From Sulfurospirillum oryzae (GTDB lineage Bacteria > Campylobacterota > Campylobacteria > Campylobacterales > Sulfurospirillaceae), in contig NZ_JANZKZ010000002.1 of the NCBI RefSeq assembly GCF_025770725.1, forward strand, positions 434,001-498,000: a DNA stretch of 64,000 nucleotides, in the 5' to 3' direction. Position numbers and translations under genes: made by a program. Position 1 is the stretch's first letter. Each line of letters begins with the position of its first letter. Of this stretch, positions 19,210-24,881 are shown piece by piece. The notes under the pieces were generated by a model, which did no database searches, had not been told where the DNA came from, and worked only from the letters and a program-made list of their open reading frames with translations.

Positions 19210-19988
19210 AGCCTCTTTTTAAAAAATAAAATCAACCCTATCATGGTTACTGCACACGTTGCCATTATCAAGCTTACCAAGCTTGTTCCATAAGGGATTT
19301 CATTAAAGGGAAGCCCTTGGCTGTTCATGCCAAAGTAGCCTGCAAGAAAGTGAAGTGGTAGAAAAATGCCTGACAAAATTGTCAAAAGATAGATGGTTTT
19401 ATTCATGCGCTCGTTATTGCGACTGGTATAGAAGTTATAGAGGTTGTTTAATTTATCCATTGCAAGCAAAGTAGAGCGATTGGTACGGCTTAAGTGTTCA
19501 TGAATATCTTTAAAGTGGATTGCTAAAAAGTCCTCTTCTTTAAGATACGTTTGTATGAAACTCTCCAAAACTTCTTCACTCAGTGTTAAAAGACGATTGA
19601 TACGACTGAGATCTTTTTTATTGCCGAGCCAATAGCGCATAAAAGAGCTAAAATAAGCATTTTCATAAAGATTTTCTTCCATCCAATCAATGCTTTCATG
19701 CAATGAAACCAGCATTTTCATTGTGATGTTTGTTTTTTCATTTAAAAGTTCATACACTTTTTCCATTGTTTCAAAATCGATGAATTCATGTGTGTTTTTA
19801 TCGAAGTAATAGCACGACGTATCGTCAAAAACAAACGCATACGAGTCAATTTTAAGCTCTTTATCTTTTGAGGGAAGGGCTAAAATCAAAATATCATAGG
19901 TTGCTTCTTCCACGAACATCGAAGGATGGGTAGGATTTTTAAGATCTAAAAGGTGAAAGCGATCAATTTGTTCATATAAGTGTGTCAT
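19206..19988 (-). CDS. CorA-like divalent cation transporter family protein
   Basis: A 260-residue protein with a long helical cytoplasmic N-terminal part and two C-terminal membrane helices separated by the signature GYFGMN, which defines CorA-type Mg/Co or ZntB-like Zn transporters. It is shorter than typical CorA (about 315-320), missing part of the N-terminal domain. It overlaps xerH upstream by 4 nt and is probably transcribed tgt-xerH-corA-like. Confidence 0.85.
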   Translation of the reverse strand: MTHLYEQIDRFHLLDLKNPTHPSMFVEEATYDILILALPSKDKELKIDSYAFVFDDTSCYYFDKNTHEFIDFETMEKVYELLNEKTNITMKMLVSLHESIDWMEENLYENAYFSSFMRYWLGNKKDLSRINRLLTLSEEVLESFIQTYLKEEDFLAIHFKDIHEHLSRTNRSTLLAMDKLNNLYNFYTSRNNERMNKTIYLLTILSGIFLPLHFLAGYFGMNSQGLPFNEIPYGTSLVSLIMATCAVTMIGLILFFKKRL

Positions 19989-21049
19989 TGTACATCATCC
20001 ATCGTGTTAGCTGCAATTTTAAGACGCTCTTTATCAAAGTGAGTATAAATGCGAGAAGTGTTCAAATCTGAGTGTCCAAGGGCTTCTTGTACCAAAATGA
20101 GGTCTCTATTTTTTTGATAAAGCAGTGTTGCAAAAGTATGGCGCAACATGTGCGCACCGTTTTTCTCTTTCCTGATTCCTGCACTCATTAAGATTTTATC
20201 CATAACATAACTGACATACGCTTGCGTCAATGGCTTTCCTGTTCGACTTTGAAATAAGAGGGCATTCTCGCCATTTCGGTACTCCATCCACTCTTTTAAG
20301 TCGTGCTCAATCTGTTCTGTTTTAATCATCGCCGTACGGGGTTTATTGCCTTTTCCACGGATCTGAAAGACGTAATAGTCACCATCTCGAACCATATCTT
20401 TTAACCTTAAACCTAAAGCCTCACTGACACGCATTCCTGTGAAGATAATCATCTTGATAAGAAGCCTATTTTTAGCCTGAACATAGGGTTTAAATTCTGT
20501 CTCTTCGATGGCTTTAAAAAAGCGTGAAAGCTCCTCTTTGTACATGTGAGCAGGGAGTTTTTCACCCTTCCTTCCACCAAGACCTCCCCAGTTTTTAAGC
20601 TCAATGCGAAACTGATGCGAATTGCCTTTGTCATCTTCATTTTGTTTGTCGATGAATTTAAAGAGTGAAACAACTGCCATACGGTAGTTTTTCTTTGTGG
20701 CATCGGAGAGTGAGCCAGTTTGTGAGGCTAAAAACTCACTAATGAGCTCCTCATCAATCTCCTTGAGGCTCTCAAGTCCCATAGGAGCGATGTAATAGTA
20801 AAATTTTTCCAATGGGTTGATAAAAAGATTGATGCCAATCAGCCCGATATTGCGGGCTTCTTTAGCAAGATTTTTCAGTTCATCCATACTTTTTGAGCCA
20901 TGATTGAGTGCGCCAATAATGGCGGAGAGTTTGGCATTTTCTTCAACATGGCGATTGGAAAGGGAAGTGAGCTTGGACTTAATAAATTTATCAAGCCAAA
21001 AAAGCAAGCTTTGCTCAAAATTCTCCTTTGCATCCACCGCATAGCGCAT
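19985..21049 (-). CDS. xerH: Tyrosine recombinase XerH (chromosome dimer resolution)
   Basis: The single Xer recombinase of Campylobacterota that acts at difH to resolve chromosome dimers. SAM-like N-terminal domain, then a catalytic domain with Arg in FTGMRVSEALGL, HMLRHTFATLL (His-x-x-Arg), and LGHSDLNTSRIYTH holding the second His and the nucleophile Tyr. The frame extends to a TTG at 21094 within tgt, but the ATG at 21049 follows the tgt TAA by 1 nt and is preferred through translational coupling. It is a house-keeping recombinase, not a phage integrase: no attachment site or cargo is seen. Confidence 0.9.
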   Translation of the reverse strand: MRYAVDAKENFEQSLLFWLDKFIKSKLTSLSNRHVEENAKLSAIIGALNHGSKSMDELKNLAKEARNIGLIGINLFINPLEKFYYYIAPMGLESLKEIDEELISEFLASQTGSLSDATKKNYRMAVVSLFKFIDKQNEDDKGNSHQFRIELKNWGGLGGRKGEKLPAHMYKEELSRFFKAIEETEFKPYVQAKNRLLIKMIIFTGMRVSEALGLRLKDMVRDGDYYVFQIRGKGNKPRTAMIKTEQIEHDLKEWMEYRNGENALLFQSRTGKPLTQAYVSYVMDKILMSAGIRKEKNGAHMLRHTFATLLYQKNRDLILVQEALGHSDLNTSRIYTHFDKERLKIAANTMDDVQ

Positions 21050-21050
21050 C

Positions 21051-22196
<1,146 letters not shown>

Positions 22197-22214: not shown

Positions 22215-23618
22215 ATGAAAAAGATTTTAATCATCGCTGATGGCATTCTAGCAAAACAATTTTTAGAAAAGGTTATGGAAACCGAAGCAGGCGAAAATAG
22301 TTATACTATCGTTACGTATAAAGAAGAGACTTTACCTAAAAAACGCCCTGAAAATTTTAAATTTTTTGAATTTGATCCAACGAGTTACGAAAAACTTGCT
22401 ATTGTCCTTAACGAGCAATTTTTTCAAGTCATGATTATTATGTCTAATGAGCTTGATGTCAAGGCTACTTATACCAACATCAGACGGGTTGATGGCAAAG
22501 TGCGCATCGTCATTATGGACAGATGGGACTTGCAGATTGAAGATAAACGCCTTTTGATGCTCAACTCTCGTGAAATTCTTGCTTCTCGTTTTACCGACCA
22601 TCTTCCCAATACGCCTATTGTCGCTCAAAACATAGGACTTGGCATTGGTGAAATTATGGAAGTCTCCGTGCCTGTGGGAAGCTCTTATGCTTACCGCCAT
22701 CTAGCGTCCATTGAGCAGAGCAAATGGAAAATCGCAGCGGTATACCGCTCCAGCACGCTTATTTTACCGCGTCCTGCGCTGATGCTTCTGCCCAATGATC
22801 TTTTGCTCCTTGTGGGTGATCCTAAAGTATTGCAAAGTGTCTTTAAAAGCATTAAGCGTGAGCTAGGTCAGTTTCCTTCTCCTTTTGGTAGCAGTATTTA
22901 CTGCCTTATCGACATGTTGCGCATGAATGACAAAGAGATCGAAGTATTGATTAACGATGCTCTTTTACTGCACTCAAAACTGAATAGCAACAAGTTACAT
23001 GTAAAGATTATCAATCCAACGTATTCCAAAATATTGGAAAAAATCAAAAGCTACAGCAACCACCATATTAACGTCATTATCGATTACTTTGAAAGCAATC
23101 CACGCAAGGTATTGAAAGAAGATACAGAGAAAATGGACATTGGACTTATTGTGGTTATGAACACCTTTTTTCAAAAAAACAAACGTACCCTCTATAAAAC
23201 AAAACTCCCGATCTTTAAGATGGGAAAACGTGGTTTTGGAAGCCTCAACCAAGGTGTCGTTTTAAGCAACGATGCCCATGAAATTGAGCAAGAGTCTTCC
23301 GTTATCTTTGACGTTGCAACACAACTTTCACTAGAGCTCAAACTTTACTCGTACAATCCTGACCATGAAAATGCTAAAAATAGCCTCATTGAGCATTTTG
23401 ACAACCTTTCAAAGATTTTTGGACGTGAAGTTGATGTGGTTCAAAGCGATAAAAATCCACTGGTAAAACTTCGAAATAAAGACAATATTTTGCAATTTTT
23501 ACCGTTTAGTCCAAAAATTTTAGACGCAAATTTTCTTTCAATTTTTTCAACCGATATGGAAAAACTTCACTTTAAGCTTGCCAATAATTATCAGCTATTT
23601 ATCCCAGTCAATGCATAA
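22215..23618 (+). CDS. TrkA-N/RCK-domain protein (COG3400-like, K+ transport regulation)
   Basis: A 467-residue protein with an N-terminal Rossmann-type RCK_N domain (MKKILIIADGILAKQFLEK), then RCK_C-like repeats (LPRPALMLLPNDLLLLVGDP), and a C-terminal half resembling universal-stress-like alpha/beta folds. It has no transmembrane segment, so it is probably a cytosolic nucleotide-sensing partner of a potassium channel or Trk system encoded elsewhere. Divergent from tgt with a 42-bp gap. Confidence 0.7.
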   Translation: MKKILIIADGILAKQFLEKVMETEAGENSYTIVTYKEETLPKKRPENFKFFEFDPTSYEKLAIVLNEQFFQVMIIMSNELDVKATYTNIRRVDGKVRIVIMDRWDLQIEDKRLLMLNSREILASRFTDHLPNTPIVAQNIGLGIGEIMEVSVPVGSSYAYRHLASIEQSKWKIAAVYRSSTLILPRPALMLLPNDLLLLVGDPKVLQSVFKSIKRELGQFPSPFGSSIYCLIDMLRMNDKEIEVLINDALLLHSKLNSNKLHVKIINPTYSKILEKIKSYSNHHINVIIDYFESNPRKVLKEDTEKMDIGLIVVMNTFFQKNKRTLYKTKLPIFKMGKRGFGSLNQGVVLSNDAHEIEQESSVIFDVATQLSLELKLYSYNPDHENAKNSLIEHFDNLSKIFGREVDVVQSDKNPLVKLRNKDNILQFLPFSPKILDANFLSIFSTDMEKLHFKLANNYQLFIPVNA

Positions 23619-23645
23619 TTAAGTGCTTTTTGAGTATTATATACA

Positions 23646-23811
23646 AGACTTCTTTCATAACCCATTGAAAAAAGAGTATCGCATATAGCACATCACTTTT
23701 TAAAACTAAAAACATCGCCATAGCTTTGGCTATGACTCAATTTTGAGTTTTAAAAATTAACGCACTCTAAGCAAGAGCTCTTTATCTTTTCAAGGGTTAC
23801 GAAAGAAGTCT
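23646..23811. repeat. 166-bp nested imperfect inverted repeat, possible structured RNA or MITE-like element
   Basis: Outer arms (23646-23670 and 23787-23811) match in inverse orientation over about 24 nt with one mismatch and one bulge (AGACTTCTTTCxTAACCC). Inner arms TTTTTAAAACT / AGTTTTAAAAA and a central hairpin CATAGC-TTTG-GCTATG nest inside. The whole gap between the TrkA-N gene and aroB is taken up by it. Confidence 0.6.
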
Positions 23812-23834
23812 AAACAAAAAAATTTGGATAAATA

Positions 23835-24881
23835 ATGCAAGTGAATGTTGTTTTAAGCGAACCCGCTTCAAAAAATTACAGTGTTTATATTGATACATTA
23901 GAAAAACTGCACTTTGACACAAAAGTTTTGATCGTCACCAACACTACGGTGGCAGCTTTACACTTAGAAAATCTCACATCACGCATAGAAGCAAAAGAAC
24001 TTCATACAGTCATCTTGCCTGATGGTGAAATGTATAAAAATTTTGACAGCCTAAACCTCATTTTAAACGCCTGTTTTGAGCATCGACTTGACCGCAAATC
24101 ACTTTTGATTGCTTTTGGTGGTGGCGTCGTGGGCGATATGACAGGCTTTGCTGCTTCCATTTACCAACGCGGGATTGATTTTATTCAAATTCCAACAACC
24201 CTTTTGGCACAAGTGGATGCCAGTGTCGGTGGAAAGACGGGCATTAACAACAGTTATGGCAAAAATCTCATTGGCTCATTTTGGCAACCTCGCGCGGTTT
24301 ACTGTGAAAGTAAATTTCTCAAAACATTACCCAAGCGTGAATTTTCAGCAGGCGTTGCTGAGATCATCAAAATGGCAGTCACTTTTGATAAAGCCTTTTT
24401 TGAGTGGCTTGAAACGCATGATCTTCACGATGAAAAGAACCTCAAAATCGCCATTCATAAAAGCATCTCCATTAAAGCCGATGTCGTTTCGCAAGATGAA
24501 ACAGAGAAGGGTATACGCGCCGTTTTAAATTACGGACATACCTTCGCACACGTCATCGAAAACCAAACAAAATACAGCACTTACTTGCACGGTGAAGCTG
24601 TAGCCATAGGCATAGTCAAGGCAAATGCTTTGGCTCAAAAATTAGGGCTTTTAAGGAAAGATGAGGCTAAAAGAGTTCAAGCTCTTTTGGAAAAGTATAA
24701 CCTTCCAACACACTACCATATCGACTCGCTCGAAGCTTTTTACGATGCTTTTTTCTTAGATAAAAAAAGTGCCAATGACAAAATCACTTTTATCTTGGCA
24801 AAAGAAATTGGTGGCAATGAAATGCGTAAAGATATTCCAAAAGAGGTCGTTTTGGAAGCTTTAGGAGACGCCAATGTTTAA
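23835..24881 (+). CDS. aroB: 3-dehydroquinate synthase AroB
   Basis: Second step of the shikimate pathway, NAD- and metal-dependent cyclisation of DAHP. The 348 residues include [49 protein letters not shown] and the metal ligand motif [11 protein letters not shown]...HGEAVAIG. It opens an operon aroB-mscS-mtaB-ftsH-like-bioV-trx in which every junction overlaps; the order matches, as I recall it, HP0283-HP0287 in Helicobacter pylori. Confidence 0.96.

Follow-up and report, generated by a model that had tools for sequence, protein, structure and literature searches.

A MITE with a probable IS5-family partner and a conserved hairpin core in front of aroB in Sulfurospirillum oryzae

Introduction

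The gap in front of aroB, the gene for 3-dehydroquinate synthase, in a 64,000-nucleotide stretch of the Sulfurospirillum oryzae genome (hereafter the window) is occupied by a large palindrome, which raises the question of whether this sequence is a mobile element or a structured leader RNA of aroB. An earlier note on this DNA had offered both readings. MITEs are small passenger transposons that move only by means of a transposase made elsewhere, and the usual account of them concerns their ends alone. REP/BIME palindromes are recognized by a 20–40-nt hairpin with a 5′ tetranucleotide and by a RAYT partner. Bacterial MITEs such as QMITE2 of Coxiella and MITEAba12 are small, AT-rich and intergenic, carry terminal repeats and target duplications, give rise to stem-loop transcripts and are mobilised in trans by IS elements (PMC10969869). 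The parts of that review reached by a term search hold no mention of Campylobacter or Helicobacter, and our literature search turned up no publication dealing with MITEs of Sulfurospirillum or Campylobacterota.

Results

The nested inverted repeat spans 166 bp (23646–23811, AGACTTC...GAAGTCT), to the base where the earlier note had placed it, and occupies the gap between a gene for a TrkA-C domain protein (22215–23618, + strand; PF02080) and aroB (23835–24881, + strand; PF01761, 1.3e-49; PF24621). The outer arms (23646–23670 and 23787–23811) are 25 nt each and 84% complementary; arms of about 24 nt had been claimed and are present, and their description as near-perfect was slightly generous. 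The inner arms (23681–23724 and 23729–23772) are 44 nt long, 70% complementary and joined by a 4-nt loop, and 23646–23811 contains no ORF of at least 80 aa, both in agreement with the first description. The RNA minimum free energy of 23600–23850 is −62.3 kcal/mol compared to −38.6 ± 4.4 kcal/mol in dinucleotide shuffles (z = −5.43), none of 200 shuffles being as stable. Elsewhere in the window, positions 19985–21094 (− strand) encode a Phage-integrase-family recombinase with an N-terminal Phage_int_SAM_6 domain, possibly XerH-like.

The window genome contains 11 full copies of the element, 84–95% identical over its length, along with one half copy and about five short stubs of 31–34 bp, all of these being counts of search matches. 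Across the genus the element is present in 15 of 24 genomes, and 61 full copies were read from 13 genomes, the window genome included. Named matches were Sulfurospirillum genomes or MAGs; a search of 20 sister-genus genomes did not find the 166-mer, and no copies were found in the plasmid and viral collections searched. Concerted evolution of the copies was considered and rejected, as they group by locus and not by genome.

The same 3-mer, never a longer one, stands at both ends of 26 of the 61 copies and is ANT in 24 of these 26; an exact duplication is absent in 35, a count that includes orthologous, non-independent copies. At aroB the duplication is imperfect, with ACA on the left (23643–23645) and AAA on the right (23812–23814). 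The element before aroB is absent in all 23 congeners, in 22 of which the gap is short and alignable. Two of them, G017 and G001, have the empty site GAGTATTATAGAAACAAAAAAATTTGG, i.e. GAGTATTATA-GAAACAAAAAAATTTGG, where the window genome has GAGTATTATATACA-(166 bp)-AAACAAAAAAATTTGG. The length difference fits a 3-bp AAA duplication with two later substitutions on the left, and the ACA would then be the decayed remnant of the AAA seen in the empty sites. By this alignment, the element before aroB is a lineage-specific insertion, later than the split of the species from its congeners.

A candidate source of transposase is found in a congener, G006, in which a 907-bp IS occurs four times; its ends, AGACTTCTTTCATAACCC, are identical to those of the MITE at 18/18 bp, and all four copies are flanked by AAT/AAT. 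In the aroB copy this left terminal inverted repeat lies at 23646–23663 (+ strand) and the right one, with one mismatch (TTACGA for TTATGA), at 23794–23811 (− strand). The IS encodes two overlapping, frame-shifted ORFs that provide the IS5-type helix-turn-helix (HTH_Tnp_4, PF13613) and DDE transposase (DDE_Tnp_4/DDE_Tnp_1, PF13359 and PF01609) of an IS5-family element. The best NCBIfam model for the transposase is NF033581, IS5 family, with each half of the split ORF scoring below the whole-protein cut-off of 140 bits. A sister IS of 916 bp with ends AGACATCTTGCAAAACTC is present in five congeners and shows ANT duplications at all loci read but one, and ANT is the target duplication of the ISL2 group. 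The match of the G006 IS to the IS5_4 model and its 3-bp duplications are as in the IS5 family, ISL2 group. Moreover, the ISL2-group elements ISCaa2 and ISCaa3 (IS5 family) are 914–916 bp long with two ORFs and a frameshift (PMC3196728), and the G006 IS is like them in size and in its ORF arrangement. The MITE has only its ends in common with the partner IS, and its interior is not derived from it.

Judged from these sequences, the 907-bp IS is the likely transposase source for the MITE. An IS5-family (ISL2-type) transposase would have excised and inserted the MITE in trans, and the aroB copy would since have been left without it. We found no DDE_Tnp_1 match and no relative of the G006 transposase in the window genome, and the copies there, that at aroB included, are therefore probably now stranded. 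The element is thus short, non-coding and multi-copy, with 18–25-bp terminal inverted repeats, 3-bp ANT duplications, empty sites and ends shared with an autonomous IS in a congener, which bears out the earlier description of a MITE-like mobile hairpin. We put at about 93% the probability that it is a 166-bp non-coding MITE whose ends are recognised by a transposase and which was inserted 5 nt beyond the −10 box of aroB.

The predicted −10 box, TATTAT (23635–23640, + strand), has the form TAnnAT in almost every congener, and 5 nt separate it from the element. This places the predicted start of aroB transcription in the first bases of the element, which would serve as a hairpin leader. The aroB mRNA would begin at or within the element with a closed 5′ hairpin, and the ribosome-binding site, with its Shine-Dalgarno core GGA outside the hairpin (23826–23828, + strand), would be left free, so that aroB would still be expressed. 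Genes with a copy in front are unrelated to one another, and the copy may face either way; among 59 contexts having two flanking genes only one is a convergent pair. Counting one entry per orthologous site, a −10-like hexamer is found within 20 nt upstream of the element on 18 of 36 gene-facing sides compared to 19 of 288 control windows (p = 3.5e-10), an enrichment reached by none of 500 composition shuffles; the median distance from copy to start codon on these sides is 25 nt. By landing behind −10 boxes, the element would equip aroB and many other genes with hairpin leaders of one kind. A role as intrinsic terminator was rejected: terminator-like calls were weak and on both strands, no T-run follows the element, and long elements have not retained the T-run.

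The interior of the element contains a conserved core (model R1; 23684–23771, + strand) with the asymmetric internal loops GCACATCAC / TTAACGCACTC and ATCGC / ACTC. A covariance model of this 88-nt short-type core identified it in 21 of 399 Campylobacterales genomes, in families f1, f6, f7 and f8; one f8 genome has at least 11 core copies, in elements that again have AGACTT ends. The partner IS has no such core. Within the genus, double compensatory changes occur in 17 of 51 pairs (63 cells vs 14 ± 3 shuffled), and across the four families in 24 of 51 (139 cells vs 45 ± 5 shuffled and at most 29 in slid controls). While the stems turn over, the loop bases ACATCAC, TTAAYGCAC and ACT are almost fixed across families, and identity across families is about 90% in the core compared to 78% in the outer arms, which are drifting. 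The earlier note had staked its reading on copies, conservation or covariation; with 11 full copies in the window genome the element is not single copy, and it is both conserved and covarying. Rfam searches at gathering and relaxed thresholds returned only tRNAs and chance miRNA- or sRNA-like hairpins far below the cut-offs. A kink-turn reading of the internal loops was dropped, its geometry fitting poorly.

The tip of the core is formed by the apical hairpin motif CATCGCCATAGC-TTTG-GCTATGACTC (23713–23738, + strand). With up to two mismatches, the 26-nt pattern CATCGCCATAGC-N4-GCTATGACTC occurs in 30 of 399 Campylobacterales genomes from four families, and the reversed-pattern control gave one chance match. 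Beyond the short type, the motif sits in Y-shaped elements of ~265–275 bp, one of which (266 nt) folds with z = −16.4. Such elements possess a second arm, with an AGGC / TAACGAAG loop, as well as a CCCGNAGGG junction. Their terminal repeats are of no fewer than three kinds (AGACTTCTTGCATAACC, ACTGACCTTACGCAC and GGGCACCTCTAAAAACCC), so that the motif is shared with MITEs having other terminal repeats than the aroB element. Y-shaped ~265-bp MITEs with common interior modules were seen in families f1, f7, f10 and f17 (loci L229, L234–L238, L241–L250, L252, L253, L256–L260 and L266–L268). The genome G026 of a sister genus (many contigs) holds many ACTGACCTTACGCAC end pairs 268 bp apart, with at least 59 end matches, and this end type is a very abundant MITE type there. 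For the other terminal-repeat types, G026 included, there was no autonomous partner IS among the matches listed. Near-perfect hairpins of 46–50 bp with AGACTTCTTGCATAACC ends and matching ANT flanks (L106 501–550 in G008:C11, and L105 in G016:C13) represent minimal MITEs.

Discussion

The aroB palindrome adds a new element to the MITE class, one with a probable partner IS of the IS5 type. It is like QMITE2 and MITEAba12 in size, AT-richness, intergenic site, repeats and duplications, and a stem-loop transcript and trans mobilisation are predicted here. Unlike them, it retains an asymmetric-loop core over several families and has an apical motif common to MITEs with different ends. Because the core is spread across the order, we regard the family as an unusual variant among MITEs.

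The strong fold (z −5.43), the covariation in the stems and the predicted 5′ leader position could also be expected of a chromosomal structured RNA or aroB leader riboregulator that is palindromic by chance. Copies before unrelated genes in both orientations, the target duplications flanking them, the lack of any element upstream of aroB in 23/23 congeners and the absence of an Rfam match speak against such an RNA, and since empty sites exist it is largely refuted; we consider it very improbable. What stands of the earlier suggestion of an aroB leader RNA is the predicted location of the element within the aroB 5′ leader; the congeners and Rfam do not support the rest. Even less probability attaches to a REP/BIME-type palindrome moved by a RAYT (Y1) transposase, the other identity that had been put forward. 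The element resembles such palindromes as a dispersed extragenic hairpin, but its 166 bp, 18–25-bp terminal repeats and ANT duplications do not fit them, and the partner that was found encodes a DDE transposase of the IS5 family.

The core poses a separate question within the MITE reading. Palindrome correction would abolish mismatched loops, yet the most constant bases are among those of the loops, and the apical motif survives a change of ends; we infer that the core is a constrained structural module, either ssDNA hairpin or RNA, separate from the transposase recognition site. That a host protein binds it is a guess and the least certain step in our account. A rival explanation, to which we give somewhat less than an even chance, holds that the core has no function and that its covariation and conservation come from DNA processes only, namely template-switch palindrome correction, recent spread and introgression. 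The ratio of G-U to A-C mismatches in the transcribed sense, 36:25, is not clearly biased to RNA, in keeping with this rival, as is the inversion of the core hairpin in one copy (G007). Moreover, where species share a locus, their copies of the element are closer in sequence than the coding DNA beside them (e.g. 163/164 vs 80%), the raised identity spills 40–80 nt into the flanks, and at the uvrD-rhodanese locus the element is patchily present and its carriers share flank alleles. At these loci, then, homologous recombination may have carried the element between species, and such introgression, as a serious alternative to selection, could account in part for the conservation there. DNA processes alone do not readily explain why the mismatched internal loops, which palindrome correction should erase, are nearly invariant in four families, or why the apical motif recurs within MITEs having unrelated ends.

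With the core read as a constrained module, we tentatively suggest, at odds that are against us, that the Campylobacterales MITEs form an ancient clan whose structurally constrained cargo, an asymmetric-loop hairpin of single-stranded DNA or RNA recognised by a host factor, was kept while ends were exchanged and was delivered into 5′ leaders. If true, the cargo hairpin would be a mobile regulatory part for such leaders. Since variable ends here surround a structured module that persists from family to family, selection on the interior of a MITE becomes directly testable.

Some copies have decayed to stubs in which the arms are retained and the interior is deleted, as in a 32-bp stub in G000 at a locus where G001 and G007 hold the full element and a 34-bp stub in G012 at the uvrD-rhodanese locus. 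One copy (L043 3001–3162, with orthologues at L143, L151, L164, L165 and L170) is placed where a UvrD-like helicase gene ends; seven Sulfurospirillum-genus genomes have it, G012 in the form of the stub, and it is cleanly absent in close relatives. Its G007 orthologue (L170 1495–1656) has the central hairpin inverted relative to all other copies, as if flipped across the inverted arms. Finally, in G000, G006, G007 and G008 the UvrD-like gene terminates at a TAG stop codon provided by the element's opening bases.
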